This document shows, piece by piece, positions 6,478 through 45,374 of a stretch of DNA of 64,000 bases (its first letter is position 1; every line of letters starts with the position of its first letter). This stretch comes from Limnoperna fortunei (Eukaryota; Mollusca; Bivalvia; Mytilida; Modiolidae): the NCBI GenBank assembly GCA_944474755.1, contig OX104114.1, positions 22,467,220 through 22,531,219 of the forward strand. Reading direction: 5' to 3'. The notes beneath the pieces were generated by a model. The model saw nothing but the letters and a program-made list of their open reading frames with translations, searched no databases and was not told where the DNA came from. A program made the position numbers and the translations under genes.

Positions 6478-7242
6478 TTAAAATTTACGTTTCGCGAAAC
6501 GTGAAGTCTCCCAAACGAAGTTACTGATAGTCCTGTACAAAAAATAGCGCGTCATATAAAAATTCTGAGTTGACCATTGAACTCGACATACTAAATTTAC
6601 TTTAGGAACCAATTTTCATTGAGTTCCGACAATGTTGAATTTTTGCCGATTTGGCGACTTTGGTGGCCATTTTTAAAAAAATGGCGGGTCGTATAAAAAA
6701 TCTGAGTGTACCGTTGAACTCGGCATACCAAATTTACTTTTAGAACCTATTTTCGTTGAATTATGACAATGTTGAATTTTTGCCCATTTGGCAACTTTGG
6801 CGGCCATTTTACAAAAAATGGCGCGTCGTATAAAAATTCTGAGTTGACCATTCGACTCGGCATACCAAATTTACTGTTAAAACCCATTTTCGTTGAAATC
6901 CGACAAACTTGAATTTTGGCGATTCGGTGGCCATTTTGAAAATGGCGGCCGGTTCGCGCGCGATTTTTTGCCAAAAATAAATCAAGACCACTATGCTGAA
7001 CCTACATACCAAGTTTCATCGAAATCCATCTGGCGGTTCTCCGGGAACTGCATTTTGGCGGGAAAACTTAAATGGCGGCCATTTTGAAAGTGGCGGCCAT
7101 CTTGGAAATTCCGAAAGATGATTGCACATCTAGCCAATAGGGTCTAACATCCTACCAAGTTTCAAATTGATCCCATTTACGGTTTCTGAGAAAAGTGTCG
7201 GAAATCTCTACGGAAAAACCAGAAGAAGAATAATAATAATAA
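6478..7242 (-). mobile_element. Family A element
   Basis: It begins TTAAAATTTACG with the perfect palindrome ACGTTTCGCGAAACGT. The subterminal repeat AAGTCTCCCAAACGAAG is at 6504-6520. The core has ~136-bp repeats (GACAATGTTGAATTTTTGCC at 6628 and 6764). The tail is AGAAGAAGAA(TAA)n. It pairs with hpA at 18470. Confidence 0.8.
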
Positions 7243-8029
7243 TTAAAATTTACGTTTCCCGAAACGTTGAAGTCGCCTCCCGTTCCGCACTTTTGACCGA
7301 GTAGAGGGAACTAAAAGTCAAGAGCACAACTTCATAACATGAGCTTTCAGTTGGCCAAGTTTCATTTCGATCGGTTAAAAGATGAGCGAGAAAACGAGCA
7401 AACTTTAAAACGGCCGCCATTTTGAAACCGGAAGTCGGACAAAAAATTTTTTTTGCAAAAATGCTCAGGATAGTTAGCTGTATCAGTATACCAATTTTCA
7501 TTGAAATTGCTCTGGCCATAACTGAGATCTGACAACGGCCGCCATTTTGTAAAACTTTAAAACGGCCGCCATTTTGAAACCGGAAGTCGGACAAAACATT
7601 TTTAAATAGTGGCACACTTAGGGTATCATAAGCTACCTGTATACCAAATTTCGTCTAAATCGGATGACGTTTAAATTTTTACATTTTTAGGGGGGTGGTG
7701 TTCGGATGGCGGCCATTTTGAAATGTCGGCCGCGTCAAATTTTTTTTGCAAAAATGCTCGGGATAGTTAGCTGTACCAGTATACCAATTTTCATTGAAAT
7801 TGCTTTGGCAATTACTGAGATCTGACAACGGCCGTCATTTTTTTCAACGGCGGCCATTTTAAAAATGGCGGCCATTTTGAAAATTTCAAAAGTGGATTGC
7901 ACAACTCCAGGTCACCCTTAACATGTTCCCAAAGTTTCATTTCGATCGGTTAAACGATGAGCGAGAAAACGAGCGGACAACATTGCGAGGGGAAAAAGGA
8001 AAACATAAGAAATATGAAAATAATAATAA
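7243..8029 (-). mobile_element. Family B element, full length
   Basis: 787 bp. It has right-end palindrome ACGTTTC-CC-GAAACGT, subterminal GAAGTCGCC, core phrases with GGCGGCCATTTTG, then GAGGGGAAAAAGG and (TAA)n. Two younger B elements are inserted in its microsatellite; its own hairpin is the second hpB at 9694. Confidence 0.8.
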
Positions 8030-8789
8030 TTAAAATTTACGTTTCCCGAAACGTTGAAGTCGCCTCCCGTTCCGCACTTTTGACCGAGTAGAGGGAACTA
8101 AAAGTCAAGAGCACAACTTCATAACATGAGCTTTCAGTTGGCCAAGTTTCATTTCGATCGGTTAAAAGATGAGCGAGAAAACGAGCAAACTTTAAAACGG
8201 CCGCCATTTTGAAACCGGAAGTCGGACAAAAAATTTTTTTTGCAAAAATGCTCAGGATAGTTAGCTGTATCAGTATACCAATTTTCATTGAAATTGCTCT
8301 GGCCATAACTGAGATCTGACAACGGCCGCCATTTTGAAACCGGAAGTCGGACAAAACATTTTTAAATAGTGGCACACTAAGGGTATCATAAGCTACCTGT
8401 ATACCAAATTTCGTCTAAATCGGATGACGTTTAAATTTTTACATTTTTAGGGGGGTGGTGTTCGGATGGCGGCCATTTTGAAATGTCGGCCGCGTCAAAT
8501 TTTTTTTTGCAAAAATGCTCGGGATAGCTAGCTGTACCAGTATACCAATTTTCATTGAAATTGCTTTGGCAATTACTGAGATCTGACAACGGCCATCATT
8601 TTTTTCAACGGCGGCCATTTTGAAAATGGCGGCCATTTTGAAAATTTCAAAAGTGGATTGCACAACTCCAGGTCACCCTTAACATGTTCCCAAAGTTTCA
8701 TTTCGATCGGTTAAAAGATGAGCGATAAAACGAGCGGACAACATTGCGAGGGGAAAACATAAGAAATATGAAAATAATAATAATAATAA
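8030..8789 (-). mobile_element. Family B element
   Basis: It lacks a ~26-bp GTAAAACTTT phrase found in its neighbour at 7243. The tail ends in GAGGGGAAAACATAAG (short-tail subtype). It is directly followed by its own hpB at 8790, so the complete element is 8030-8841. Confidence 0.82.
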
Positions 8790-8841
8790 GAAACGGAGTA
8801 AAAACAATAAGTCGCCCGACACTTCGTGGTCGGCGACTTAA
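8790..8841 (-). repeat. Terminal hairpin hpB
   Basis: 52 bp: GAAACGGAGTAAAAACAATA, then arms AAGTCGCC / GGCGACTT with CGA/TCG and CAC/GTG inner pairs around a TTC loop. On the minus strand it forms the 5' end of the element at 8030. Confidence 0.85.
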
Positions 8842-9638
8842 TTAAAATTTACGTTTCCCGAAACGTTGAAGTCGCCTCCCGTTCCGCACTTTTGACCGAG
8901 TAGAGGGAACTAAAAGTCAAGAGCACAACTTCATAACATGAGCTTTCAGTTGGCCAAGTTTCATTTCGATCGGTTAAAAGATGAGCGAGAAAACGAGCAA
9001 ACTTTCAAACGGCCGCCATTTTGAAACCGGAAGTCGGACAAAAAATTTTTTTTGCAAAAATGCTCAGGATACCGGTAGTTAGCTGTATCAGTATACCAAT
9101 TTTCATTGAAATTGCTCTGGCCATAACTGAGATCTGACAACGGCCGCCATTTTGTAAAACTTTAAAACGGCCGCCATTTTGAAACCGGAAGTCGGACAAA
9201 ACATTTTTAAATAGTGGCACACTTAGGGTATCATAAGCTACCTGTATACCAAATTTCGTCTAAATCGGATGACGTTTAAATTTTTACATTTTTAGGGGGG
9301 TGGTGTTCGGATGGCGGCCATTTTGAAATGTCGGCCGCGTCAAATTTTTTTTTGCAAAAATGCTCGGGATAGTTAGCTGTACCAGTATACCAATTTTCAT
9401 TGAAATTGCTTTGGCAATTACTGAGATCTTACAACGGCCGTCATTTTTTTCAACGGCGGCCATTTTGAAAATGGCGGCCATTTTGAAAATTTCAAAAGTG
9501 GATTGCACAACTTCAGGTCACCCTTATTATGTTCCCAAAGTTTCATTTCGATCGGTTAAAAGATGAGCGAGAAAACGAGCGGACAACATTGCGAGGGGAA
9601 AAAGGAAAACATAAGAAATATGAAAATAATAATAATAA
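8842..9638 (-). mobile_element. Family B element
   Basis: Full-length B, long-tail subtype (GAGGGGAAAAAGG), with a small ACCGGT insertion near 9070. It is paired with hpB at 9639. Confidence 0.82.
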
Positions 9639-9745
9639 GAAACGGAGTAAAAACAATAAGTCGCCCGACACTTCGTGGTCGGCGACTTAATAAGAAACGG
9701 AGTAAAAACAATAAGTCGCCCGACACTTCGTGGTCGGCGACTTAA
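9639..9745 (-). repeat. Two hpB terminal hairpins
   Basis: Copies at 9639-9690 and 9694-9745 are separated by one TAA. In the bracket reading the first closes the B at 8842 and the second the B at 7243. Confidence 0.82.
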
Positions 9746-10739
9746 CAAGTGCTGATTGTGATTGCAAGCAAGTCACAAAAAAATCCCCTCCCGTGCCCAC
9801 TTTTGTCACAATTCGGACAACTTTTCAATTTTCGCACTTTGGCGGCCATTTGGAATATGGCGGCCATCTTGGACTTTGGCAGCCATCTTGGATTTGTTCG
9901 ACATGTTGTTCGTAATATCAATATTGACCTAAATGCCAATTTTTGTTGAAATCAGACAACTTTTAAATATTCGCACTTTGGCAGCCATTTTGAATATGAC
10001 AGACATCTTGGATTTGTTCGAAAGTGTCGCCATGTTGTTCGTAATATCAATATTGACCTAAATGCCAATTTTCGTTGAAATCGGACAACTTTTCAATTTT
10101 CGCACTTTGGCGGCCATTTTGAATATGGCGGCCATCTTGGACTTTGGCGGCCATCTTGGATTTGTTCAAACATGTCACCATGTTGTTCGTAATATCAATA
10201 TTCACCTAAATGCCAATTTTCGTTGAAATCGGACAACTTTTCAATTTTCGCACTTTGGAGGCCATTTTGAATATGGCGGCCATCTTGGACTTTGGCGGCC
10301 ATCTTTGATTTGTTCGAACATGTCACCATGTTGTTCGTAATATCAATATTGACCTAAATGCCAATTTTCGTTGAAATCGGACAACTTTTCAATTTTCGCA
10401 CTTTGGCGGCCATTTTGAATATGGTGGCCATCTTGGATTTTTCGGAAAATGGTCCCATATTGTCCGGGACCTTAATATTGACCTATAAACCTATTTTGGT
10501 TCATATCCATATTGTTTGTGATTTTTTATGATTAATTTTGTATTTTTTTCAAATTCAAAATGGCCGCCAATCCAAGATGGCCGCCATTTTCAAAATTTCG
10601 AAATCGGAAACAACATTTCCTAGTGGTGACCTATCTTTCTGGTAAGTTTCATTGACCTATGTCTTTTCGTCTTCGAGAAATCCTACGGACAAAGTTAGGT
10701 CCAGAAGAAGAAGAAGAAGAAGAAGAAGAAGAAGAAGAA
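9746..10739 (-). mobile_element. Family E element, first copy (tail split by LINEs)
   Basis: It starts CAAGTGCTGATTG with an imperfect palindrome GTGATTGCAAGCAAGTCAC, then subterminal AAATCCCC. The core has 130-148-bp repeats (ATCAATATTGACCTAAATGCC phrases near 9917, 10046, 10194, 10341). The tail is a long (GAA)n. Two LINEs sit in the (GAA)n; the tail resumes at 18390-18415, followed by hpE. Confidence 0.8.
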
Positions 10740-10934
10740 TTTTTGAATTTTCAATACCCTTTATTAAATAAAACAATATATCACAGTAGTACAAGGTATC
10801 AAAAATTCAAGTAACATAAAAAATAATCCTTACAAATACATTATTATGACAAGCTATTTAACAATTTTGAAAATACATATAATTATATAGACTTTAAACC
10901 CAAAAGTATACAAAAATACAATAGAAATATAAAA

Positions 10935-11089
10935 GACTTTGTCCAACTGATCAAGGTCAGTTTAAACTGATACAAGCCAGTTTAAACTTTAACATTTTAA
11001 CCTACCTATTGTTAAAATTAAAGAGCCCTATAAATGACTTTGTCCAAATGATCAAAGTCAACATGGACTGGTACACGCCAGTCCATGTT
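10935..11089 (-). other. Paired 3' UTR hairpins of LINE copy 1
   Basis: Two similar modules each start with GACTTTG..CAAAGTC (first copy has AAGGTC). They continue with a perfect stem: AGTTTAAACTG/CAGTTTAAACT (10959-10988) and AACATGGACTGG/CCAGTCCATGTT (11060-11089). The arms differ but remain complementary. A role in template recognition by the reverse transcriptase is inference. Confidence 0.7.
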
Positions 11090-11172
11090 TTAACCTTTAT
11101 TTCATCGCGGTTTACAATATAAATAAACAGAACTAAAATAGATACAAAAACAAAAAAACAATCAACTTACCA

Positions 11173-11960
11173 TTATATATTTACAATAAGCTTGTCATTA
11201 GAAATATAACATAAAACATTGTTAAGACACCAAAAATCTGAAAAAGAATCAATATTGTTCATAAACTTACAATATGAAAACTCGATTGCCAGTCGGGCGC
11301 GGATGCGCGACCTGAATTCCTGGAGTGGGTCTGTTTGTCCGCCTCCCGTCCTCAGGTGCTGCAGGGTCACGTAGGTGGCCATCTTCGCCTGTGTGGCAAT
11401 CCACTGGAACAGTCGTCTTGGGGTCCTGTACCGCTTCATCCATCGTTGCGTGTTGGTACATTCTCCCAACACGACTGTTCCGTCCTCCATCACCATTGGC
11501 AGTCTGTTAGTCTCTGGACAGCCGACCCTGGATGACATGTGGTCGGCTGGTACTGTGATGTCTGGACAGCTGATCCAAGATGGCGGTTGATCAGCTGGAC
11601 TCGATTTCCTAACTGGACAGCTGTCCGATGTTGGCGTGTGGACAGCTGGAGGAGATCGATTTGCACTGACCTGAGGTGGCGTTAGGTCAGTGCTAGTAAA
11701 AGTAGAAGGTCCAAATATAAATGATTCTATTGAACCTACATTATTTGTGCTTAATTTACAAAGAATATTATGAACGTTATTTAATAAAACACTAATACGC
11801 GGACAGGAAATAAAAATATGATGTATGTCATCTTGTACACCACAAGAGGGACATACATCAGACTGCTGATAACCAGCTTTACAATAAAATTTACTAGTTG
11901 CAATAGCACCATGAAGGATTCTCCAGTTAAGGTCACCTTCATGCATGCTATGAGGATATA
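11173..11960 (-). CDS. LINE ORF2 C-terminal fragment
   Basis: The fragment reads HSMHEGDLNWRILHG, then the metal-binding-like CX2CX7HX4C motif (CPSCGVQDDIHHIFISC), a Pro/Ser-rich linker and the C-terminal block FRSRIRARLAIEF. It has no start of its own and lacks endonuclease and reverse transcriptase, so it is a dead 5' truncation. Confidence 0.8.
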
Positions 11961-12180
11961 AGAAGAAGAAGAAGAAGAAGAAGAATTTGAATTTTCAATA
12001 CCCATTATTAAATAAAACAATAAATCACAGTTGTACAAGGTATCAAAAATTCAAGTAACATAAAATATAAACCTAACAATACATTATTTTGACAAGCTAC
12101 ATTTAACAATTTTGAAAATACATATAAATAAGTTAACTTTAAACCCAAAAGTATATAAAATAAGACAAATATTTTTAAAG

Positions 12181-12334
12181 ACTTTGTCCAAATGATCAAA
12201 GTCAGTTTAAACTGATACAAGCCAGTTTAAACTTTAAACATTATTACCTACCTATATTAAAATTAAAAAAACCTATAAATGACTTTGTCCGAATGATCAA
12301 AATCAACATGGACTGGTACACGCCAGTCCATGTT
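12181..12334 (-). other. Paired 3' UTR hairpins of LINE copy 2
   Basis: Stems lie at 12204-12233 (AGTTTAAACTG arms) and 12305-12334 (AACATGGACTGG arms), each after a GACTTTGTCC..ATGATCAAA module. Confidence 0.7.
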
Positions 12335-12418
12335 TTAACCTTTAACACATCGCGATTTACAATATATAAACAAGAAAAAAAAAATATAAATCAAAAATAC
12401 AGATAAAATAACTTAACA

Positions 12419-15400
12419 TTAAATATTCACAAAAAGCTTGTCATTAGAAATAAAACACAATACATTATTAAAACACCAAAAATCTGAAAAAGAATGAACA
12501 TTATTTATAAACTTACAATAGGCAAATTCAATTGCCAACCGGGCGCGGATGCGCGACCTGAATTCCTGGAGTGGGTCTGTCTGTCCGCCTCCGGTCCTCA
12601 GGTGCTGCAGGGTCACGTAGGTGGCCATCTTCGCCTGGTTGGCAATCCATAGGTACAGCCGTCTTGGGATCCTCTGGGTCTTCGTCCATCGGTGCGTGCT
12701 GGTACCTTCTCCCAACACGACTGCACCATCCTCCATTAACACAGGTTCCATCACCGTCTCAGGACAGCCGGTCGTGGATGACGTGCGGCCGGCTGGTGTA
12801 TCTGGACAGCTGATCCTAGGTGGCGGTGGATCAGCTGGAATCGATCTCCTAACTGGACAGCTGTCCGATGGTGGCGTGTGGACAGCTGGAGGTGATCGAT
12901 TTGCACTGACCTGAGGTGGCGTATGGTCAGTGCTTATGGTAGAAGGTCCAAATATAAAAGAGTCTATTGAACCTAGATCATTTATAATTAATTTACGCAA
13001 CATATTTTTAACATGGCTTAATAAAATTTGTAAACGTGGACAGGAAACAAAAATGTGGTATAAGTCCTCCTGCAAACCACAAGAGGGACAAACATCCGAC
13101 TGCTGATAACCAGATTTAAAGTAAAATTTACCGGTTGCAATAGCACCATGAAGGATTCTCCAGTTAAGGTCACCTTCATGCATGCTATGAGGATATTCAT
13201 AAACATGACTATATATAACATTAAGGGGAACATTTGATTTTAAAATATTATTCCAAGGGGACAGTAACTTTTTGGTACGGGAACAATTAAAATTCTGAAC
13301 AACAGATAACAAATAAATCATTTTGTTGGGACATTTATCCAGAACAACACCCTTACTTAATTCAGGTGCATTGTCAATATTTACTTTAAAAATATATTGG
13401 TGAACAAAACCAACATCAATATCATTATGTAGAAAACGGTCAATCAATATACTCCACTCCGGAGGAAAAGACGACCATAATACATCCAGATGTTTTTGGA
13501 TACAGCGTTCAGAACGAGTGCTTAAAATTCCAACAAGATCTACTGCAGTAAATTTTCTTTTTAGACTAGTATCAAAAAGATCTTTAACTTTGGTTATACC
13601 GGCAATTACAAAATTTTCAAAATAAAAAGGTTCATCAGTTTTAGTGTTAATTAATAAAGGATTAAAGAACAAAGGTTCTTCTAAAATGTCTGCAACTGAG
13701 GTATCATCTATTTTTATTCTAGATGATTCAAAATATTTCCAGGCTTTTATTAAATCTTGATAAAAGCTTGGAATGTTAGTGTATTGAAAATCCCCATCAA
13801 GTAATAACAATTGAACATCATAATTCAAATTAGAAACAGTAGACAAAAAATATTTACAAAAATAGTAACAAGGGTGAACATCTTCACCATTCATTAATGT
13901 CAAAAATCTATACATAAATTGAATTCGAAAATCACGAATTCTAGACAAAATATGAACTAGACCCTGTCCTCCAGTACATACGGGAAGATATAACATTTCT
14001 TTTGAAACCCAATGTTTTCCTTGCCATAGAAAATCTACAAATTTGTTTTGAATGGCACTAATAATTTCATCGGGCACGGCCACGGAATTTAATCGATGCC
14101 ATAATTTTGACGCGGAAAGTAAATTGATAACAAGTGTTCGTCCTCTGAGTGACAAACCGCGAGCAAATGGTTTCCACCTGTCAAGTTTGACAGTAATATC
14201 CTCCTCCATCCCTTCCCAATTTTGTTTATAGAAATCCTTATTGTTTCCAACAAAAGTACCCAAAACCTTTAAACCTTTATTATTCCACTTGAGACCAAGT
14301 GGACAATCATTTCTATTTTTCCAACTTCCCACCCACAAACCCTCTGACTTTTGTAAATTAATTTTTGAATTGGAAGCTTTCTGGTATATATCTAACCAGA
14401 AAGACAACCTACCAAAATCAGAGTCTTGCGTTAATAAAGTATCCAAATCATCTGCATATGCAGATAAACAACTTTTCTTACCATCAGATAATGGAAGTTC
14501 AAGTCCTGATAAGCCGTCGTTTGATCTTAGTTTGTGTAAAAGAGGTTCAAGACATATGGCATATAATTGACCAGACAAAGAACATCCTTGTCGTATACCT
14601 CTTTTAAATTGAAAAGGGGATGATAACGAGTTATTAATTTTAAGTAAGCTATGTACATCTGTATAAATAGTTTTTATACAGGATATAAAATAATCGCCAA
14701 AAACGAAGGCTTCTAATGTCTTCATCAAATAACCATGATGAACACGATCAAACGCCTTCTCTTGGTCAAGGGAAACAATAGCAAGGGGGATATGTTCCTG
14801 ATTAGCATAACACGTAGCATCAGAAATAAAACGAATATTATCACTTATATGACGACCGGGAACACAATAACTTTGATCGATATTTAATATATCGGGAAGA
14901 ACGGTACGGAGTCTTAACGAGAAAGCTCTCGTTAATATTTTATAGTCGCAACAGAGAAGAGACACAGGTCTCCAGTTTTTCAACAAACTACTATCACCTT
15001 TCTTTGGAATCATCGTCAGAACGGCTCTTCTGCACGAAAGCGGAAGTCTGTTTTCTTCAATAGAAGAAACAAAAACTTCGTGTATATCTTTCCCAACGAT
15101 GTTCCAAAAGGTTTTGTAAAATTCACTAGGCAACCCATCAATACCAGGGGACTTATTATTATTCATTTTTAAAACGGCACAGGACAATTCATCATAGCTT
15201 ATTACACTATCTAATGTTTGCTTTTGGGTGTCACTTATTGTAGGAAGGTCTTTCAAAATTTCATTTTGACAACCTTCATCAACAGGATCGGGGCTATACA
15301 AATCGGAGTAAAAATTTCGGGCAAGGGTTTTTATTTCCTGATCAGAATCAGTTATACTGCCATCAGGCAAGGTTAAATGGGATAAAAGTTTCTTTGTACC

Positions 15401-16543
15401 ACGTTTCTTTTCAAGGTCGAAGAAATATTTTGTAGGTTTATCTGAATCATTAACATATCTGAATCTTGAACGAACCCAAGCACCACGGGCCTGGATTCGT
15501 TCAAGTTCAGATAACTGATGTTGCTTCTCAATTAAAATGACATTAAGATCAGGGTTAGTTGCAATATTTGATTTTAATAACTCAATATCAGATTGCAAAC
15601 TATCAAATTTACGTTTAAAATCATAATTCTTTTTAATGGAAAATTCTTGCGAAAGTTCCTTTATTTTGTATTTTCCTCGATCCCACCAATCTTGAATACA
15701 CTTAAACTCAGATTTCTGTAATTGCCAGGAAAGCCAAAAGTTATTTATCATGTCAACATACAATTTATCATCTAACAGAGATGTATTTAAACACCAGTAA
15801 GCACTCTTGTGTTTACTTGGTATTTCTTTAAAATAAACACGAACGTAATTATGATCAGAATATGAACATCGTTTTATTTCTGAGGATCGAATAAACTGAC
15901 TATAATGTTTAGATATATAAATTCGATCAAGTCTTGCGGCGACACCGTCATTTCTCGACCAAGAATATATTTTATCATACGGATGAATATTGCGAAACGT
16001 ATCAATAAATTTGAAACGTTTAACAATATTTTTAAAATCATTACAAGAATGGGGGTGGGGTTCAACATCTCCTGTCCTATCTAAAGAAGGATTGGTAGTA
16101 CAATTGAAATCACCTCCAAGAAATATTGGATAGGAAGAATCAAGTTGATTCAAATGGTGTTTTAAATATTTCAAAAATTCTAGTTTTTCTTTGGGACAGG
16201 TGGGGGAATAGACATTCAACAAATAAACAGTTTGCTCATGTAATTTGATAGTAGCATGTAAAATGCGACCAGGTAATATAACTTTATGATCTAGAATAGT
16301 ATATTCTAAATTATTCGAAAAACATATCGCTAATCCAGCAGAAATAGTTGAGAGATGAGAGAACACTATTTCTCCTCTCCATATCATTTTCCATATACCT
16401 TCATCAGAAGGAATGGTATGAGTATCTTGAAGAAAAACTATACCTGCATTTAATTTAGATTTTAAAGAATCTAATATAAAATATCTTTTAAACGAGTCAC
16501 GACAACCTTGAGTATTCAAGGAAACTAATGAAAAACCGGACAT
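12419..16543 (-). CDS. LINE ORF2: APE endonuclease - reverse transcriptase
   Basis: I start at MSGFSLVSLNTQG (1374 residues), as in the copy at 45183; an upstream in-frame Met adds 20 residues. Endonuclease (1-240): N10, Q39-D40-T-H, N110, GGDFNC (143-148), DRIY (206-209), SDH (229-231). The usual QETH glutamate is Asp. Reverse transcriptase (~460-730): KSPGIDGLPSEFY, LDQEKAFDR with catalytic D593, RQGCSLSG, YADD (696-699). A CX2CX7HX4C motif is at 1152-1168, then a Pro-rich linker (~1208-1270) and a conserved C-terminal block. It would nick (TTC)n DNA and copy LINE RNA by target-primed reverse transcription. One oddity: EAFVFGDYF here versus EAFGFGDYF in the other copies. Confidence 0.92.
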   Translation of the reverse strand: MSGFSLVSLNTQGCRDSFKRYFILDSLKSKLNAGIVFLQDTHTIPSDEGIWKMIWRGEIVFSHLSTISAGLAICFSNNLEYTILDHKVILPGRILHATIKLHEQTVYLLNVYSPTCPKEKLEFLKYLKHHLNQLDSSYPIFLGGDFNCTTNPSLDRTGDVEPHPHSCNDFKNIVKRFKFIDTFRNIHPYDKIYSWSRNDGVAARLDRIYISKHYSQFIRSSEIKRCSYSDHNYVRVYFKEIPSKHKSAYWCLNTSLLDDKLYVDMINNFWLSWQLQKSEFKCIQDWWDRGKYKIKELSQEFSIKKNYDFKRKFDSLQSDIELLKSNIATNPDLNVILIEKQHQLSELERIQARGAWVRSRFRYVNDSDKPTKYFFDLEKKRGTKKLLSHLTLPDGSITDSDQEIKTLARNFYSDLYSPDPVDEGCQNEILKDLPTISDTQKQTLDSVISYDELSCAVLKMNNNKSPGIDGLPSEFYKTFWNIVGKDIHEVFVSSIEENRLPLSCRRAVLTMIPKKGDSSLLKNWRPVSLLCCDYKILTRAFSLRLRTVLPDILNIDQSYCVPGRHISDNIRFISDATCYANQEHIPLAIVSLDQEKAFDRVHHGYLMKTLEAFVFGDYFISCIKTIYTDVHSLLKINNSLSSPFQFKRGIRQGCSLSGQLYAICLEPLLHKLRSNDGLSGLELPLSDGKKSCLSAYADDLDTLLTQDSDFGRLSFWLDIYQKASNSKINLQKSEGLWVGSWKNRNDCPLGLKWNNKGLKVLGTFVGNNKDFYKQNWEGMEEDITVKLDRWKPFARGLSLRGRTLVINLLSASKLWHRLNSVAVPDEIISAIQNKFVDFLWQGKHWVSKEMLYLPVCTGGQGLVHILSRIRDFRIQFMYRFLTLMNGEDVHPCYYFCKYFLSTVSNLNYDVQLLLLDGDFQYTNIPSFYQDLIKAWKYFESSRIKIDDTSVADILEEPLFFNPLLINTKTDEPFYFENFVIAGITKVKDLFDTSLKRKFTAVDLVGILSTRSERCIQKHLDVLWSSFPPEWSILIDRFLHNDIDVGFVHQYIFKVNIDNAPELSKGVVLDKCPNKMIYLLSVVQNFNCSRTKKLLSPWNNILKSNVPLNVIYSHVYEYPHSMHEGDLNWRILHGAIATGKFYFKSGYQQSDVCPSCGLQEDLYHIFVSCPRLQILLSHVKNMLRKLIINDLGSIDSFIFGPSTISTDHTPPQVSANRSPPAVHTPPSDSCPVRRSIPADPPPPRISCPDTPAGRTSSTTGCPETVMEPVLMEDGAVVLGEGTSTHRWTKTQRIPRRLYLWIANQAKMATYVTLQHLRTGGGQTDPLQEFRSRIRARLAIEFAYCKFINNVHSFSDFWCFNNVLCFISNDKLFVNI

Positions 16544-16626
16544 TACAATTGTAATTGTAATACAAATACAGAACAAAGAAGCATAATTAAATATACAATA
16601 CATATTGACTTAGATATATTTTATCT

Positions 16627-18183
16627 CTAAGCATGAGTTTTCAGGTAGGTTTTTAATTTCTTTATCAATTTATTTAAACGGGCTTTCAGCTGGGAAGAGG
16701 ACTCGGGGTTTCGTCGAAGGTCGATAAAATCTTGACATAGTTGCCTGAGGTTGGTGGTATACTCTAGGCATTTTTCTACTGGTTTTTTGTTACTTTTGAG
16801 TTCCACAAGAAGTCTATCCAGCTCCTCAGTGGATAATTTGTGCTCAGTATCCACTACTACTTGTGATAAATTTTGCTCTGACAAATCAGAGGAAATAGAC
16901 TCAATGTCTATATCCTCGTCTTCATTGCTGTTGGAAATACAATTAGATGAAGGGGGTAAATCCCATATACTTGTATTCTCTTCAGTAGAAACATCTTGAC
17001 TTTTATCAGTTGTGGGAGTTTTAACACATATAACTAAATCATTACTCTCTGCTGCTTTTCGTTTGACTGCAGCTTTAACTGGCAACTGATCAGTCTCGTG
17101 TTTTTCAATAGGGGGGTTATTAGCAACAATTTTATTAGAAATAGTAGATTTCTCGAATTTTTCCACAGTAGTAAAATTGGCTGGGGTTTTTGAGGCTGTA
17201 GCACAGACGCCAGAGTTCGAGGCAACAGCCTGCTGACTAGTCTCAGTTGGGGGTACCGGTTCAGCCGTAAATATGGCATCTGTATTTGTTTCCGATTTTT
17301 TGTTCTCGGCTGCAGTTCTGTTTTCGGGACATCGATTTTGTATATGTCCAGTCTGTTTACATTTAAAACAAATAACATCGTCATTTACAAATATTCTATA
17401 ATTTTGTCTTTGATAGTACATATCAAAGTATTCCGGTAACACGATATGGGGATGGGGAAGAAGGGAAACCTGCCTCCTAAAAGACTTAACATGTTTTAGT
17501 GCTGGCAGTTTGATGCCTAGTGCAATAGGCTTAATATCGGAAAGAATGCGTCCATAGCGCATCAATTCGTCTTCTAATAGGTCATTCGGTATAAAAGGGG
17601 GGCAGTTTGACAATGTTACTTTTTTGGGAATTTTAACGAGGCATTGAACATCAATATATTCATCCCCGATACTTAAGCCATTTGAACACAAATGCTCAAC
17701 ATCGTCAAGGTTGGATAAGAATATCACAACTCCAGACCTCATACGAGAGGCAGCCACTATATTCTCTGGTTTCACAACAGAGGAAACAGCAATAACATAC
17801 TGTTCAATAGAGACTGACTGTATGTTTCTTAATTTTACTCCATGTTTCTTCGACACAAAACCAAACGGCTTATGTCCGAACGAAGGCATGTTATCGTCTT
17901 GTTCAAATCTTGAACTTTCTCTTTCGGGCAGTACATTGTTTTCACCTGACAAATCTGAACTTTTTGCTCTTGAACTTTCACAGCTCAATTTTGATTTAAC
18001 AATGTTATTAACATTATTAGCCTGAGGCTCGGATTTACCACCTACCTTTGACGGCATTGTCCTCTTAATTAAATTAAGATCTCTATTGTCCGTATTACAT
18101 GACAAAGAATTGCCCGAGGCAACTACAGTCGACAACTGAGTAGATTTACCCATGACCACACTGGAAAACGAAGGCGACGCCAT
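16627..18183 (-). CDS. LINE ORF1: nucleic-acid-binding gag-like protein with CCHC knuckle
   Basis: 518 residues from MASPSFSSVV. This start matches the 518-residue ORF1 of the copy at 45183; the frame stays open upstream but that part lies in the 5' UTR. Layout: low-complexity Ser/Asn-rich N-terminus (1-100), RRM-like alpha/beta region (about 125-265), CCHC zinc knuckle CFKCKQTGHIQNRC (272-285), acidic Ser-rich linker, and a C-terminal helical basic segment ending KLKTYLKTHA. The role known for this class is RNA packaging into a ribonucleoprotein with ORF2. Confidence 0.88.
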   Translation of the reverse strand: MASPSFSSVVMGKSTQLSTVVASGNSLSCNTDNRDLNLIKRTMPSKVGGKSEPQANNVNNIVKSKLSCESSRAKSSDLSGENNVLPERESSRFEQDDNMPSFGHKPFGFVSKKHGVKLRNIQSVSIEQYVIAVSSVVKPENIVAASRMRSGVVIFLSNLDDVEHLCSNGLSIGDEYIDVQCLVKIPKKVTLSNCPPFIPNDLLEDELMRYGRILSDIKPIALGIKLPALKHVKSFRRQVSLLPHPHIVLPEYFDMYYQRQNYRIFVNDDVICFKCKQTGHIQNRCPENRTAAENKKSETNTDAIFTAEPVPPTETSQQAVASNSGVCATASKTPANFTTVEKFEKSTISNKIVANNPPIEKHETDQLPVKAAVKRKAAESNDLVICVKTPTTDKSQDVSTEENTSIWDLPPSSNCISNSNEDEDIDIESISSDLSEQNLSQVVVDTEHKLSTEELDRLLVELKSNKKPVEKCLEYTTNLRQLCQDFIDLRRNPESSSQLKARLNKLIKKLKTYLKTHA

Positions 18184-18389
18184 CTTTAAACCAAAAATTA
18201 AACCAATAAACAAAAACACAATCCACCAAAAATCTCGGCAATCCGAGAATAAATAACGAAAATAGCCCCACAAAATGAAAGCACTTCTTCTTCTGAATAC
18301 AACAATATAAATTTTGACGAACCACAATACAAAATAACCAATAAATAAATGATTTGAGCGGAGCTCCGAAAAACACGTCCTATCCCTTC

Positions 18390-18415
18390 AAGAAGAAGAA
18401 GAATAATAATAATAA
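18390..18415 (-). repeat. Resumed (GAA)n(TAA)n tail of the E element at 9746
   Basis: AAGAAGAAGAA followed by (TAA)n lies right after the LINE 5' end and right before hpE, completing the element interrupted at 10739. Confidence 0.75.
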
Positions 18416-18579
18416 GAAACGGTGCAAAAACAATAAATCCCCGACACTTCGTGGTCGGGGATTTAATAAGAAACAGAGTAAAAACAATAAGTCTCCAAAC
18501 TTCGTTTGGGAGACTTAATAATAATAAGAAACGGAGTAAAAACAATAAGTCGCCCGACACTTCGTGGTCGGCGACTTAA
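18416..18579 (-). repeat. Terminal hairpins hpE, hpA, hpB in series
   Basis: hpE 18416-18466 (arms AAATCCCC/GGGGATTT), hpA 18470-18518 (AAGTCTCC/GGGAGACTT), hpB 18528-18579. They close, in this order, E (9746), A (6478) and B (6284). This exactly balances the first block. Confidence 0.82.
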
Positions 18580-18582
18580 TAA

Positions 18583-19199
18583 CTAGTGCTGATTGTGTTG
18601 GGATGCCAACACAGAATGTCTCCCAAACGAATCCCCATGGATAGTATTTCATTCAAATCAGTACATTAAAATATGCCTAGAAATCAAATTTTGTTGAAAT
18701 CGGACAAAGTTGACTTTTTCCTGCAGTAAAATGGCCGCCATTTTGAAACCGGAAGTCGGACAAAACATTTTTAAATAGTGACACACTCAGGGTATCATAA
18801 GCTACTTGTATACCAAATTTCGTCTAAATCGGATGACGTTGAAATTTTTGCATTTTTAGGGGGGTGGTGTTCGGATGGCGGCCATTTTGAAATGTCGGTC
18901 GCGTCAAATTTTTTTTTGCAAAAATGCTCAGGATAGTTAGCTGTATCAGTATACCAATTTTCATTGAAATTGCTTTGGCAATTACTGAGATCTGACAACG
19001 GCGTCATTTTTTTTCAACGGCGGCCATTTTGAAAATGGCGGCCATTTTGAAAATTTCAAAAGTGGATTGCACAACTTCAGGTCACCCTTAACATGTTCCC
19101 AAAGTTTCATTTCGATCGGTTAAAAGATGAGCGAGAAAACGAGCGGACAACATTGCGAGGGGAAAAAGGAAAACATAAGAAATATGAAAATAATAATAA
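18583..19199 (-). mobile_element. CB chimera element
   Basis: The right end is family C (CTAGTGC, palindrome GTGTTGGGATGCCAACAC, ATGTCTCCCAAACGA). The tail is family B (GAGGGGAAAAAGGAAAACATAAG). It is the leftmost element of the second block; its partner is probably hpB at 57167, the last hairpin of the pile. Confidence 0.75.
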
Positions 19200-19834
19200 C
19201 TAGTGCTGATTGTGTTGGGATGCCAACACAGAATGTCTCCCAAACGAACCCCCATTGCCACTATAATCCCCATGGATAGTATTTCATTCAAATCAGTACA
19301 TTAAAATATGCCTAGAAATCAAATTTTGTTGAAATCGGACAAAGTTGACTTTTTCCTGCAGTAAAATGGCCGCCATTTTGAAACCGGAAGTCGGACAAAA
19401 CATTTTTAAATAGTGACACACTCAGGGTATCATAAGCTACTTGTATACCAAATTTCGTCTAAATCGGATGACGTTGAAATTTTTGCATTTTTAGGGGGGT
19501 GGTGTTCGGATGGCGGCCATTTTGAAATGTCGGTCGCGTCAAATTTTTTTTTGCAAAAATGCTCAGGATAGTTAGCTGTATCAGTATACCAATTTTCATT
19601 GAAATTGCTTTGGCAATTACTGAGATCTGACAACGGCGTCATTTTTTTTCAACGGCGGCCATTTTGAAAATGGCGGCCATTTTGAAAATTTCAAAAGTGG
19701 ATTGCACAACTTCAGGTCACCCTTAACATGTTCCCAAAGTTTCATTTCGATCGGTTAAAAGATGAGCGAGAAAACGAGCGGACAACATTGCGAGGGGAAA
19801 AAGGAAAACATAAGAAATATGAAAATAATAATAA
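19200..19834 (-). mobile_element. CB chimera element
   Basis: Near-identical to the previous chimera, but it keeps an 18-bp CCCCATTGCCACTATAAT segment missing there. It or the next chimera pairs with hpB at 56423; the other lacks a hairpin. Confidence 0.72.
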
Positions 19835-20470
19835 CTAGTGCTGATTGTGTTGGGATGCCAACACAGAATGTCTCCCAAACGAACCCCCATTGCCACTATA
19901 ATCCTTATGGATAGTATTTCATTCAAATCAGTACATTAAAATATGCCTAGAAATCAAATTTTGTTGAAATCGGACAAAGTTGACTTTTTCCTGCAGTAAA
20001 ATGGCCGCCATTTTGAAACCGGAAGTCGGACAAAAATTTTTTAAATAGCGGCACACTCAGGGTATCATAAGCTACCGGTATACCAAATTTCGTCTTAATT
20101 GGATGACGTTTAAATTTTTGCATTTTTAGGGGGGTGGTGTTCGGATGGCGGCCATTTTGAAATGTCGGTCGCGTCAAATTTTTTTTTGCAAAAATGCTCG
20201 GGATAGTTAGCTGTATCAGTATACCAATTTTCATTGAAATTGCTTTGGCAATTACTGAGATCTGACAACGGCCGTAATTTTTTTTCAACGGCGGCCATTT
20301 TGAAAATGGCGGCCATTTTGAAAATTTCAAAAGTGGATTGCACAACTTCAGGTCACCCTTAACATGTTCCCAAAGTTTCATCTTGATTGGACATTGCATC
20401 TCTGAGAAAATGTGCGGACAACATTGCGAGGGGAAAAAGGAAAACATAAGAAATATGAAAATAATAATAA
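19835..20470 (-). mobile_element. CB chimera element, different junction
   Basis: The C sequence continues further here, through TTGATTGGACATTGCATCTC to GTGCGGACAA, before switching to the B tail. The C-to-B switch therefore happened at another point than in the two chimeras to the left. Confidence 0.72.
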
Positions 20471-21250
20471 TTAAAATTTACGTTTCCCGAAACGTTGAAG
20501 TCGCCTCCCGTTCCACACTTTTGACCGAGTAGAGGGAACTAAAAGTCAAGAGCACAACTTCATAACATGAGCTTTCAGTTGGCCAAGTTTCATTTCGATC
20601 GGTTAAAGGATGAGCGAGAAAACGAGCAAACTTTAAAACGGCCGCCATTTTGAAACCGGAAGTCGGACAAAAAATTTTTTTGCAAAAATGCTCAGGATAG
20701 TTAGCTGTATCAGTATACCAATTTTCATTGAAATTGCTCTGGCCATAATTGAGATCTGACAACGGCCGCCATTTTGTAAAACTTTAAAACGGCCGCCATT
20801 TTGAAACCGGAAGTCGGACAAAACATTTTTAAATAGTGGCACACTTAGGGTATCATAAGCTACCTGTATACCAAATTTCGTCTAAATCGGATGACGTTTA
20901 AATTTTTACATTTTTAGGGGGGTGGTGTTCGGATGGCGGCCATTTTGAAATGTCGGCCGCGTCAAATTTTTTTTTGCAAAAATGCTCGGGATAGTTAGCT
21001 GTACCAGTATACCAATTTTCATTGAAATTGCTTTGGCAATTACTGAGATCTGACAACGGCCGTCATTTTTTTCATCGGCGGCCATTTTGAAAATGGCGGC
21101 CATTTTGGAAATTTCAAAAGTCGATTGCACAACTTCAGGTCACCCTTAACATGTTCCTAAAGTTTCATTTCGATCGGTTAAAAGATGAGCGAGAAAACGA
21201 GCGGACAACATTGCGAGGGGAAAACATAAGAAATATGAAAATAATAATAA
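20471..21250 (-). mobile_element. Family B element
   Basis: Short-tail subtype. The A element at 21251 is inserted in its microsatellite; its own hpB is at 22104. Confidence 0.8.
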
Positions 21251-22042: not shown

Positions 22043-22155
22043 GAAACAGAGTAAAAACAATAAGTCTCCAAACTTCGTTTGGGAGACTTAATAATAATAA
22101 TAAGAAACGGAGTAAAAACAATAAGTCGCCCGACACTTCGTGGTCGGCGACTTAA
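22043..22155 (-). repeat. Terminal hairpins hpA and hpB
   Basis: hpA 22043-22091 closes the A at 21251; hpB 22104-22155 closes the B at 20471, showing A nested in B. Confidence 0.82.
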
Positions 22156-22938
22156 TTAAAATTTACGTTTCCCGAAACGTTGAAGTCGCCTCCCGTTCCG
22201 CACTTTTGACCGAGTAGAGGGAACTAAAAGTCAAGAGCACAACTTCATAACATGAGCTTTCAGTTGGCCAAGTTTCATTTCGATCGGTTAAAAGATGAGC
22301 GAGAAAACGAGCAAACTTTAAAACGGCCGCCATTTTGAAACCGGAAGTCGGACAAAAAATTTTTTTTGCAAAAATGCTCAGGATAGTTAGCTGTATCAGT
22401 ATACCAATTTTCATTGAAATTGCTCTGGCCATAACTGAGATCTGACAACGGCCGCCATTTTGTAAAACTTTAAAACGGCCGCCATTTTGAAACCGGAAGT
22501 CGGACAAAACATTTTTAATAGTGGCACACTTAGGGTATCATAAGCTACCTGTATACCAAATTTCGTCTAAATCGGATGACGTTTAAATTTTGACATTTTT
22601 AGGGGGGTGGTGTTCGGATGGCGGCCATTTTGAAATGTCGGCCGCGTCAAATTTTTTTTTGCAAAAATGCTCGGGATAGCTAGCTGTACCAGTATACCAA
22701 TTTTCATTGAAATTGCTTTGGCAATTACTGAGATCTGACAACGGCCGTCATTTTTTTCAACGGCGGCCATTTTGAAAATGGCGGCCATTTTGAAAATTTC
22801 AAAAGTGGATTGCACAACTTCAGGTCACCCTTAACATGTTCCTAAAGTTTCATTTCGATCGGTTAAAAGATGAGCGAGAAAACGAGCGGACAACATTGCG
22901 AGGGGAAAACATAAGAAATATGAAAATAATAATAATAA
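22156..22938 (-). mobile_element. Family B element
   Basis: Short-tail subtype, complete with hpB at 22939 (22156-22990). Confidence 0.82.
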
Positions 22939-22990
22939 GAAACGGAGTAAAAACAATAAGTCGCCCGACACTTCGTGGTCGGCGACTTAA
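22939..22990 (-). repeat. Terminal hairpin hpB
   Basis: It closes the B at 22156 and is immediately followed by the next A element. Confidence 0.83.
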
Positions 22991-23650: not shown

Positions 23651-24279
23651 TTAAAATTTACGTTTCGCGAAACGTGAAGTCTCCCAAACGAAGTTACTGA
23701 TAGTCCTGTGCAGCCTGTGGCGGGTCGTATAAAAAATCTGAGTGTACCGTTGAACTCGGCATACCAAATTTACTTTTAGAAGCTATTTTCGTTGAATTAT
23801 GACAATGTTGAATTTTTGCCCTTTTGTCAACTTTGGCGGCCATTTTACAAAAAATGGCGCGTCGTATAAAAATTCTCAGTTGACCATTGGACTCGGCATA
23901 CCAAATTTACTGTTAAAACCCATTTTCGTTGAAATCCGACAAACTTGAATTTTTGGCGATTCGGCGGCCATTTTGAAAATGGCGGCCGGTTCGCGTGCGA
24001 TTTTTTGCCAAAAATAAATCAAGACCACTATGCTGAACCTACATACCAAGTTTCATCGAAATCCATCTGGCGGTTCTCCGGGAACTGCATTTTGGCGGGA
24101 AAACTTAAATGGCGGCCATTTTGAAAGTGGCGGCCATCTTGGAAATTCCGAAAGATGATTGCACATCTAGCCAATAGGGTCTAACATCCTACCAAGTTTC
24201 AAACTGATCCCATTTACGGTTTCTGAGAAAAGTGTCGGAAATCTCTACGGGGAAACCAGAAGAAGAATAATAATAATAA
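23651..24279 (-). mobile_element. Family A element, larger internal deletion
   Basis: The core starts at CTGTGGCGGGTCG, losing about two core repeats. It is inserted in the microsatellite of the A at 22991 and closed by hpA at 24280. Confidence 0.78.
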
Positions 24280-24328
24280 GAAACAGAGTAAAAACAATAA
24301 GTCTCCAAACTTCGTTTGGGAGACTTAA
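24280..24328 (-). repeat. Terminal hairpin hpA
   Basis: Arms AAGTCTCC-AAAC / GTTTGGGAGACTT with one bulged base. It closes the A at 23651. Confidence 0.8.
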
Positions 24329-24965
24329 CTAGTGCTGATTGTGTTGGGATGCCAACACAGAATGTCTCCCAAACGAACCCCCATTGCCACTATAATCTCC
24401 ATGAATAGTATTTCATTCAAATCAGTACATTAAAATATGCCTAGAAATCAAATTTTGTTGAAATCAGACAAAGTTGACTTTTTCCTGCAGTAAAATGGTC
24501 GCCATTTTAAATCGGAAGTCGGACAAAAAATTTTTAAATAGTGGCACACTCAGGGTATCATAATCAACCTGTATACCAAATTTCGTCTAAATTGGATGAC
24601 GTTTAAATTTTTGCATTTTTAGGGGGGGGGGGTGTTCGGATGGCGGCCATTTTGAAATGTCGGCCGCGTCAATTTTTTTTTGCAAAAATGCTCAGGATAG
24701 TTAGCTGTATCAGTATACCAATTTTCATTGAAATTGCTTTGGCAATTACTGAGATCTGACAACGGCCGTCATTTTTTTTCAACGGCGGCCATTTTGAAAA
24801 TGGCGGCCATTTTGAAAATTTCAAAAGTGGATTGCACAACTTCAGGTCACCCTTAACATGTTCCCAAAGTTTCATCTTGATTGGACATTGCATCTCTGAG
24901 AAAATGTGCGGACAAGATTGAACGGAAAGAAAAAAGAAAGAAAGAAAGAAGAAGAATAATAATAA
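24329..24965 (-). mobile_element. Family C element
   Basis: True C at both ends: tail GGACAAGATTGAACGG, then (GAAA)n, (GAA)n and (TAA)n. Complete with hpC at 24966. Confidence 0.82.
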
Positions 24966-25016
24966 GAAACCGGACAAAAACAATATGTCTCCCAAAACTT
25001 CGTTTGGGAGACATAA
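24966..25016 (-). repeat. Terminal hairpin hpC
   Basis: Arms ATGTCTCCCAAAA / TTTGGGAGACAT. The right arm is the inverse of the 16-base ATGTCTCCCAAACGAA found inside the right end of C elements. Confidence 0.85.
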
Positions 25017-26276: not shown

Positions 26277-27064
26277 TTAAAATTTACGTTTCCCGAAATG
26301 TTGAAGTCGCCTCCCGTTCCGCACTTTTGACCGAGTAGAGGGAACTAAAAGTCAAGAGCACAACTTCATAACATGAGCTTTCAGTTGGCCAAGTTTCATT
26401 TCGATCGGTTAAAAGATGAGCGAGAAAACGAGCAAACTTTAAAACGGCCGCCATTTTGAAACCTGAAGTCGGACAAAAATTTTTTTTTGCAAAAATGCTC
26501 AGGATAGATAGCTGTATCAGTATACCAATTTTCATTGAAATTGCTCTGGCCATAACTGAGATCTGACAACGGTCGCCATTTTGTAAAACTTTAAAACGGC
26601 CGCCATTTTGAAACCGGAAGTCGGACAAAAATTTTGAAAATAGTGGCACACTCAAGGTATCATAAGCTACCTGTATACCAAATTTCGTTTAAATCGGATG
26701 ACGTTTAAATTTTTACAGTTTTAGGGGGGTGGTGTTCAGATGGCGGCCATTTTGAAATGTCGGCCGCGTCAAATTTTTTTTTGCAAAAATGCTCGGGATA
26801 GGGAGCTGTATCAGTATACCAATTTTCATTGAAATTGCTTTGGCAATTACTGAGATCTGACAACGCCGTCATTTTTTTTCAACGGCGGCCATTTTGAAAA
26901 TGGCGGCCATTTTGAAAATTTCAAAAGTGGATTGCACAACTTCAGGTCACCCTTATTATGTTCCCAAAGTTTCATTTCGATCGGTTAAAAGATGAGCGAG
27001 AAAACGAGCGGACAACATTGCGAGGGGAAAAAGGAAAACATAAGAAATATGAAAATAATAATAA
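26277..27064 (-). mobile_element. Family B element
   Basis: Long-tail subtype with scattered differences (CCCGAAATGTTG at the right-end palindrome), so it looks older than its neighbours. Closed by one hpB of the run at 33135-33412. Confidence 0.78.
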
Positions 27065-27850
27065 TTAAAATTTACGTTTCCCGAAACGTTGAAGTCGCCT
27101 CCCGTTCCGCACTTTTGACCGAGTAGAGGGAACTAAAAGTCAAGAGCACAACTTCATAACATGAGCTTTCAGTTGGCCAAGTTTCATTTCGATCGGTTAA
27201 AAGATGAGCGAGAAAACGAGCAAACTTTAAAACGGCCGCCATTTTGAAACCGGAAGTCGGACAAAAAATTTTTTTTGCAAAAATGCTCAGGATAGTTAGC
27301 TGTATCAGTATACCAATTTTCATTGAAATTGCTCTGGCCATAACTGAGATCTGACAACGGCCGCCATTTTGTAAAACTTTAAAACGGCCGCCATTTTGAA
27401 ACCGGAAGTCGGACAAAACATTTTTAAATAGTGGCACACTTAGGGTATCATAAGCTACCTGTATACCAAATTTCGTCTAAATCGGATGACGTTTAAATTT
27501 TGACATTTTTAGGGGGGTGGTGTTCGGATGGCGGCCATTTTGAAATGTCGGCCGCATCAAATTTTTTTTGCAAAAATGCTCGGAATAGTTAGCTGTACCA
27601 GTATACCAATTTTCATTGAAATTGCTTTGGCAATTACTGAGATCTGACAACGGCCGTCATTTTTTTCAACGGCGGCCATTTTGAAAATGGCGGCCATTTT
27701 GAAAATTTCAAAAGTGGATTGCACAACTTCAGGTCACCCTTAACATGTTCCCAAAGTTTCATTTCGATCGGTTAAAAGATGAGCGAGAAAACGAGCGGAC
27801 AACATTGCGAGGGGAAAACATAAGAAATATGAAAATAATAATAATAATAA
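27065..27850 (-). mobile_element. Family B element
   Basis: Short-tail subtype. The G element is inserted in its microsatellite; closed by one hpB of the run at 33135-33412. Confidence 0.78.
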
Positions 27851-28846
27851 TTAAACATGATTATGATCTTATGGATCATAACTGGCTCCCAAACGACCCC
27901 CGTGGACACTGGAGTTCAGACATCCATTCACAGCAACTTAATCAACCAGGAAACCAAGTTTCGTGCAAATCGGAGCATTTTTCAATTTTGTCGGCCATCT
28001 TGGATTCAAAATGGCCGCCATAGAAAGTCCACATGTGCGTCATCTGGTTCGGTATAACATACTCTACTTATATTCCAATTTTCATTGAAATCCGTTAACT
28101 TATGGATTTTTAAGGATTTATTTTCATTTTCAAAATGGCTGTCATTTTAAGATGGCCGTCGTGTTCAAATTCAAATTTCGATGACTATCATCTGATCGCA
28201 ACATGGTACTCTACCTTAAAACCAAGTTTCGTGCGATTACGAGCATTTTGAATTTTTGGCGGCCATCTTGGATTCAAAATGGCCGCCATAAAGTCAACAT
28301 GTGCGTCATATGGTGCAGAATAACATACTCTACTTATATTTCAATTTTCATCTAAATCCGTTAACTTTAGGATTTTTAATGATTTATTTTCATTTTCAAA
28401 ATGGCCTCCATTTTAAGATGGCTGCCTTGTTCAAATTTAAATTTTGATGACCAACATCTGATCGCAACATTGCAATCTACCTAAAAACCAAGTTTTGTGC
28501 GATTACGAGCATTTTAAATTTTTGGCGGCCATCTTGGATTCAAAATGGCCGCCATAAAAAGTCAACATGTGTGTAATATGGTGCGGTATAACATACTCTA
28601 CTTATATTCCAAATTTCATCGAAATCCGTTAACTTTTGGATTTTTAAGGATTTTTTTCATTTTCAAAATGGCCGCCATTTCAAGATGGCCGCCAATTTAA
28701 AAATTTTAAACCTGAAAGGCACCACTTCACATCATGACCTATTTTTGTGTGAAGTTTCATTTGGATCCAATATACGGTCTCTGAGAAAACATCCGGACAA
28801 AATTCTGGCGGAAAGTGGAAGAAAAAAAAAAAATAAATAATAATAA
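27851..28846 (-). mobile_element. Family G element
   Basis: The only G in the window. The right end has an 8-bp stem TTATGATC-TTATG-GATCATAA and subterminal TGGCTCCCAAACGA. The core has three ~267-bp repeats (CATACTCTACTTATAT near 28056, 28323, 28590). The tail is a run of A then (TAA)n. Closed by hpG at 28847. Confidence 0.8.
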
Positions 28847-28897
28847 GAAACGGAGCAAAAACAATATGTCTCCCAAACTTTCGTTTGGGAGCCATAA
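28847..28897 (-). repeat. Terminal hairpin hpG
   Basis: Arms ATGTCTCCC / GGGAGCCAT. The right arm inverse (TGGCTCCCAAACGA) matches the G right end over 14 bases, while the left arm looks like hpC, leaving one mismatched pair. Confidence 0.75.
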
Positions 28898-35516: not shown

Positions 35517-35565
35517 GAAACAGAGTAAAAACAATAAGTCTCCAAACTTCGTTTGGGAGACTTAA
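35517..35565 (-). repeat. Terminal hairpin hpA
   Basis: Closes the A-type element at 34048. Confidence 0.8.
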
Positions 35566-45182: not shown

Positions 45183-45374
45183 TGAATTTTCAATACCCTT
45201 TATTAAATAAAACAATAAATCACAGTTGTACAAGGTATCAAAAATTCAAGTAACATAAAATATAAACCTAACAATACATTATTTTGACAAGCTACATTTA
45301 ACAATTTTGAAAATACATATAAATAAGTTAACTTTAAATCCAAAAGTATATGAAAATACAATAGAAAAAATAAA

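Follow-up and report, generated by a model that had tools for sequence, protein, structure and literature searches.

How does a transposon that lies among its relatives, and in part inside them, find the end that belongs to it? The question is raised by a 64,000-nucleotide stretch of the bivalve Limnoperna fortunei (assembly GCA_944474755.1, contig OX104114.1, positions 22,467,220 to 22,531,219), hereafter the window, where a nested cluster of short HINE/Helentron elements from six families (A, B, C, E, F and G) fills positions 6284–57216, about 51 kb on the + strand from the outermost left to the outermost right junction (both strands were scanned). Each family carries a word of its own twice, in the hairpin at one end and just inside the other end, as asymmetric terminal inverted repeats (ATIRs). 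We report that, where the two arms of a hairpin differ within the word, the conserved match is the one between the two ends and not the complementarity within the hairpin, and we lean toward the view that this pair of words serves as an address, read by base pairing, for recognizing the right end of the element being copied. To our knowledge, how a Helentron chooses its 3′ end is not settled.

Results

In the orientation of the window, a right end consists of AAGAAACNGNNNAAAAACAAT (one base changed in F) followed by a hairpin of 28–31 bases, while a left end has a family-specific stretch, as a rule a small hairpin, and then the family word. A sequence-only reading of the locus had placed the six hairpins and six left words correctly, e.g., the family A word AAGTCTCCCAAACGAAG at 6504–6520 of the + strand; the features it assigned to 6478–28897 are present there, but the cluster continues to 57216. 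On folding, the terminal hairpins beat shuffled sequences in all six families (z from −3.5 to −7.1; the F stretch was offset by three bases). Genome searches in the 1.335-Gb assembly that holds the window, where all counts are exact matches and lower bounds, gave 4690 + 4820 = 9510 copies of the R core against 1 for the control. Chance hairpins are ruled out by these two results.

Left word and outer hairpin arm match in register over 19 bases in A, 8 in B, 16 in C, 8 in E, 10 in F and 14 in G. Only one of the 720 pairings of six words with six hairpins gives the observed score, and it is the observed one, which upholds the claim that the same word stands at both ends of each family. Three more families, H, I and J, were found outside the window in genome loci. 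With nine left words and nine outer arms, 2 of 362,880 arrangements attain the observed score, one of them through a tie of the near-identical H and J. A search pattern for words starting with WGG found one place in the genome.

It had also been claimed that in each hairpin the opposite arm had changed to stay complementary. Over the word, this is true of five of the six hairpins and fails in family G, whose inner arm ATGTCTCCC and outer arm GGGAGCCAT leave an uncompensated T·C mismatch; the G hairpin, mismatch included, has 312 exact copies genome-wide. The arms differ within the first ten bases in A, G, H, I and J, and at the position of difference the left word of all five sides with the terminal, outer arm. 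End-to-end identity there is held even in G, H and I, whose hairpins contain a mismatch at this position. The arms of C, E and F show no difference within ten bases, and those of B differ at positions 9–10 only, where the left word fits neither. Where the arms differ within the word, the conserved match is end-to-end, not hairpin complementarity.

The covariation test of the hairpins, proposed beforehand, supports hairpin pairing, and a like test of the ATIRs supports ATIR:ATIR pairing. For the hairpin arms of all nine families (8 distinct rows), 95.3% of cells pair, 6 of 8 pairs vary on both sides and none of 500 shuffles reaches the score, a comparison that kinship among sequences can win without any structure. 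For ATIR:ATIR pairing in eight of the nine families (J was omitted as H-like), 94.6% of cells pair, 5 of 8 pairs vary on both sides, and the score is 0.536 versus 0.173 when shuffled; the families share descent, so these covariation counts are non-independent events.

In the published anatomy of Helitron2 and Helentron elements, the 5′ ATIR lies at the 5′ end in a hairpin, and the 3′ ATIR about 20–60 bases inside the 3′ end, ahead of a second hairpin (PMC3627910, PMC4067079). Because the published 5′ ATIR stands in the terminal hairpin, we take the hairpin on the window's right as the biological 5′ end and the word on its left as the 3′ ATIR (the family A word at 6504–6520 is thus a 3′ ATIR read on the other strand); the elements are therefore read on the minus strand. 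The identification of Helitron2/Helentron ends is borne out, but the direction first assumed was reversed. Read biologically, an element consists of the 5′ ATIR in its hairpin, a core common to the families (ATTGTTTTT...GTTTCTT; F, I and some H copies deviate by single bases), (ATT)n, the body, the 3′ ATIR, in most cases a second hairpin, and the 3′ end. In all six window families the 5′ ATIR is in the 5′-terminal hairpin and the 3′ ATIR, located by eye, is about 20–60 bp from the 3′ end; the 3′ hairpin beats shuffles in A, B, C and G. The (AAT)n microsatellite and tandem arrays of 137/148 bp are traits of HINEs, and the four large open frames scanned within the cluster encode proteins of the type found in long interspersed nuclear elements (LINEs), five smaller frames lying outside that scan. 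By their anatomy, the window copies are protein-less HINEs of at least six related Helentron-type families, that is, new families of a known kind. Canonical Helitron1 (5′ TC, a single 3′ hairpin before CTRR) is excluded by the 5′ starts AAGTC, ATGTC, AAATC and ATGGC and by the hairpins at the 5′ end; C and F elements nonetheless end in CTAG.

The cluster sits in a host tandem repeat and has 37 left and 42 right ends, every one on the + strand in the window scan; two F right ends missed by the scan were picked up by reading the sequence. TAA precedes all 37 left ends and AA follows all 42 right ends; for the flanks, the sole comparison was with a sister copy of the host repeat. All representative elements lie on the minus strand. 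Uninterrupted ones are found for A (23651–24326, its window-left edge being the biological 3′ end and its hairpin, 24299–24326, the biological 5′ end; folding used the identical sequence at 18489–18516), for B (22156–22988, hairpin 22958–22988, folded as the identical hairpin at 18547–18577) and for C (24329–25014, hairpin 24985–25014, itself folded). The E element at 9746–18464 contains LINE insertions (hairpin 18435–18464, folded), the F element spans 36389–37438 (hairpin 37409–37438; the folded stretch was 37412–37441), and the G element with the mismatched hairpin spans 27851–28895 (hairpin 28866–28895).

Elements insert into the (ATT)n beside another element's 5′ end, and right ends thereby stack; right ends in tandem are observed in the window. 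We parsed the nesting as a set of brackets that may not cross, opened by left ends and closed by right ends, with five chimeric left ends typed by their tail. A type-matched parse pairs 32 of 37 left ends by left word and 35 of 37 by tail type; with the right-end labels permuted 60 times, the latter paired 23.9 on average and 27 at most. Innermost left–right pairs in the window agree in type in 21 of 21 cases (20,001 permutations: mean 5.2, maximum 13). Seven right ends stay unpaired in the tail-type parse, six of them of type B and located in stacks of several families; in the series of five stacked B-type 5′ ends with spacers at 33133–33412 (minus strand), three are unpaired in the best nested parse. 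New copies have inserted into T-rich sites, mostly the elements' own (ATT)n, in a single orientation. Insertion would occur at TT, and the presence of TT on only one strand of (ATT)n would explain the single-orientation nesting.

When 20 genome loci are added to the window (21 sequences), 74 of the 78 innermost pairs have matching end types, and all four disagreeing pairs carry a B-type 5′ end. The loci were chosen by eye among 100 listed places on contig C1 and comprise single copies as well as clusters, several adjoining one another; the 78 pairs are, therefore, a non-random sample in which many copies are kin by descent.

Chimeric elements that combine a C-type 3′ word with a B-type tail are the main departure from this agreement. 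Three consecutive ones occupy 18583–20472 (starts 18583, 19200 and 19835), and another lies at 43552–44186 with a nested E element after it, all on the minus strand. At least three classes of breakpoint were found, based on 8 of 12 C-C, 9 of 10 C-B and 14 of 35 ordinary-length B-B copies together with two B-C-B mosaics. Word–tail pairs in the sample, unrestricted in length, are 44 B-B, 12 C-C, 10 C-B and no B-C (0 of 66). Genome-wide, within reachable lengths, a C word is joined to a C tail in 271 copies and to a B tail in 250, the two length ranges being comparable. The corresponding counts for the B word, 159 with a B tail and 3 with a C tail, concern shortened copies only, since the ordinary B 3′ half exceeds the pattern length, and are not comparable with the C-word counts. 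We rejected the 3 copies as proof of an asymmetry, as the pattern is too short to catch B/C chimeras whose B 3′ half has its ordinary length. Also rejected as mismatched pairs were 145 matches to a C body with a B core (121 with a C core): of four that could be read, two have a B 3′ word and hence matched ends. By coordinates, of 45 such matches on C1–C4, a C word is present in 25, a B word in 8 and neither, within the pattern lengths, in 12, though one of these 12 (C1:5473068) does carry a B word.

The sequence-only reading had proposed ends recognized as a matched pair by a cognate factor. Combinations are indeed non-random, as the 74 agreeing pairs and the lack of B-C in 66 show, but mismatched copies are nearly as many as matched C-C ones. 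Strict cognate pairing is weakened by the numerous C/B chimeras: mismatch is tolerated at least as a genomic product. We asked how often copies are isolated, i.e., have no listed element within 100 kb. With the C-C, C-B and G lists, isolated copies are 26/98 for C-C, 27/95 for G and 4/85 for C-B (C-C vs. C-B, p = 4.6e-5). In a pool enlarged by short B-B and further copies, they are 23/98 for C-C, 23/95 for G, 6/57 for B-B and 3/85 for C-B; C-C again differs from C-B (p = 8e-5), but the matched short B-B control does not stand apart from C-B (p = 0.16). Since matched short B-B copies are also seldom isolated, the rarity of isolated C/B copies does not decide whether mismatched copies move.

The genome holds at least 147 matches to Helitron_like_N, from the scoring of 150 among 180 candidates, and their open frames reach 2992 codons. 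At about C7:34001224-34010993 a C 5′ end, a 2292-codon open frame and a C 3′ end follow in succession, and no further end of the nine known types lies between the two C ends. The frame, taken in two pieces, has OTU, DUF6570, Helitron_like_N (8.1e-31), PIF1 (4.5e-23) and Exo_endo_phos domains, the last an endonuclease (5.3e-12) at its C-terminal end, a result that concerns the family C element only. An intact Helentron thus carries the family C end pair, and the end motifs, the only part compared, are identical between HINE and Helentron. A second copy (C12:42646134) has its C 5′ end in place, with 95.6 and 97.0% identity over the two largest blocks read and 92.8% in the repeat-rich 5′ block; a third (C9:44439574) is 99.8% identical to the C7 element over 5.3 kb, its C 5′ end being outside the stretch read. 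The C Rep domain is 99–100% identical at five loci, and the next matches reach at most 69%, save a 35-residue fragment at 74%.

A Rep-helicase element had been anticipated for each of the six end pairs; beside C, there is a lead for E only, and no coding partner emerged for A, B, F, G, H, I or J. The Rep locus L034 shows 63% identity to the C Rep, and 3.3 kb upstream of its frame lie about 92 bases of family E body at 98.9% identity (C7:45721001-45721514). A DNA search with this junction returned its own locus, with one more E unit upstream, and nothing else. L034 may be an E-family Helentron; alternatively, an E copy inserted beside a Rep locus. For 7 other Rep loci, upstream stretches of about 6 kb showed no core followed by such a hairpin, and core matches there were only chance-like, with up to three substitutions. 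Close to large HINE clusters, at C4:26194078 and C1:59890738, there are Rep fragments with 66–69% identity to the C Rep, possibly remnants of other families' partners.

LINE and other insertions are interspersed among the cluster elements. LINE copies (endonuclease, reverse transcriptase, CCHC ORF1) lie inside both E elements, at 10740–18390 and 45180–54740, and are flanked by (AAG)n tracts at 10703, 11960, 45142, 51583 and 54733, as if this microsatellite were the LINE target. An insertion of about 1.47 kb in a B element (40462–41934) has 17-base terminal inverted repeats, CCAACTATATCGGTCAT, seen by eye, and is probably a DNA transposon. At 34050–36380, an A element contains foreign sequence of about 1.3 kb, tandem repeats of 165 bp included, and then an A-type 5′ end that runs straight into A body without a 3′ end; it is perhaps a capture or read-through product. 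Adjoining the cluster, an open frame of 467 amino acids (99–1502) encodes an ANF receptor ligand-binding domain, with relatives from Potamilus, Patella and Mytilus at 36–48% identity and closest matches of up to 74%.

Discussion

Much of what we describe has precedents. In Helitron2, ATIRs, compensatory changes between related elements and a stop by ATIR pairing were all published by Bao and Jurka in 2013 (PMC3627910). There the 5′ ATIR lies in the 5′ hairpin, as in our elements, and the 3′ ATIR in the 3′ hairpin, which may hold here too; the compensatory case in the published text, however, consists of two Culex elements, and here it comprises nine families in one genome, some of whose hairpins are mismatched and separate the hairpin from the end-to-end constraint, within a nested cluster. 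Helentrons and HINEs/DINE-1 (Thomas et al. 2014, PMC4067079) share subterminal inverted repeats (subTIRs), a 3′ palindrome, a microsatellite, a Rep-helicase-endonuclease partner and apparently a preference for TT, but stacking into their own (ATT)n on the scale seen here is not described in the available text. Cg_HINE of the Pacific oyster (PMC7492417) likewise has a 5′ subTIR, an inverted repeat and a microsatellite in one flank, central tandem repeats, and a 3′ subTIR with a palindrome in the other; its 11 elements are reported as unlinked to the autonomous Helentrons of Repbase, whereas family C is linked. The Helitron2 element FoHeli of Fusarium oxysporum (PMC5148889) also has ATIRs with hairpins and several 5′ termini per 3′ terminus, which was explained by self-insertion and a stop at the first 3′ end; here, in contrast, six of the seven leftover 5′ ends are of type B and stand in stacks of several families. 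In the distant Helitron1 Helraiser, the 3′ hairpin is a termination signal whose deletion leads to more read-through (PMC4778049). In the open-licence literature, as far as its accessible text goes, we found no description of such nested Helentron stacks or of families that separate hairpin from ATIR matching.

We hypothesize that a Helentron enzyme would nick at the 5′ end and that the strand would then be unwound in rolling-circle fashion; once the 3′ ATIR is exposed, ATIR:ATIR pairing would melt the 5′ hairpin and signal the stop, a scheme put forward for Helitron2 by Bao and Jurka. Our preference for DNA pairing over one protein per family has two grounds: the 5′ core is common to the families, and those with mismatched hairpins keep end-to-end identity and not hairpin complementarity. 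A more far-reaching version, which we put forward only tentatively, is that ATIRs are bracket passwords: amid nested foreign 3′ ends, a family's own word would let only the complementary 3′ end close the copy, and a single Helentron protein may suffice for many families, with the address held in DNA complementarity and not in protein specificity.

Several observations weigh against an address function. The F word matches the inner arm over more bases (12) than the outer (10), the B and E words tie at 8 bases to either arm, and the 3′ hairpins of E and F fold no better than shuffles. The C-word/B-tail chimeras are almost as numerous as C-C copies (250 versus 271). A group with a support of 0.875 is formed by four chimeras, two from the window and two from another contig, and the mismatched form may have moved or been copied at least once, though this grouping may come in part from a common breakpoint interval. 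On C1–C4, 3 of 85 C/B copies, at C2:64857542, C3:4375524 and C4:38881325, lie more than 100 kb from any listed element, the lists excluding A, E, F, H and ordinary B. Finally, no transposition was observed.

The base-pairing address has to be set against three other explanations. The strongest, which we judge to have a minor but real chance, is that each family's own Helentron protein recognizes the end pair, so that the words co-evolve with a DNA-binding domain and word pairing matters little. The Helentron that bears the C end pair has a Rep nearly invariant at five loci and distant from its next relative (at most 69%, the 35-residue fragment aside), and the more divergent L034 Rep with E body upstream suggests a separate protein for E. 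Covariation among families cannot be counted here, as it is expected of any ATIR-paired element and is, therefore, no proof of a separate protein per family. Against a protein for each family speak the common 5′ core, as if one protein could serve all, the 7 Rep loci whose upstream 6 kb have no core plus hairpin, the abundance of C/B chimeras, and the words themselves, which preserve complementarity and no fixed protein site.

It is somewhat less probable that the end match reflects descent alone, one end having been copied onto the other by template switching or gene conversion with no selection on the match. In its favour, recombination between families is frequent, with three or more breakpoint classes and with B-type 3′ ends swapped onto C bodies. 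Descent alone, though, fits poorly with G, H and I, which keep end-to-end identity at the very position where their hairpins are mismatched, the G hairpin persisting in 312 exact copies, and with bodies that recombine while the ends still match in 74 of 78 innermost pairs. That the array grew mainly by unequal recombination and segmental duplication, with few transpositions and with nesting and end pairing as by-products, would suit the right ends in tandem and the equal distances seen here and there between chimeric copies (1649 bp at C4:26.08 Mb, for instance), but is already unlikely as a full account, and to us very improbable, given matched C (23/98) and G (23/95) copies with no listed element within 100 kb and the same AA/TT context at all 37 left and 42 right window ends.

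Conclusions

The role of ATIR pairing was proposed in 2013 from a few elements; the mussel genome examined here offers nine families with different words. In some of them the hairpin and the end-to-end match are at odds; in addition, there are hundreds of natural mismatched chimeras that can serve as a control, and an intact Rep-helicase-endonuclease partner for family C. Taken together, this material makes the recognition of Helentron ends directly testable in a laboratory assay.

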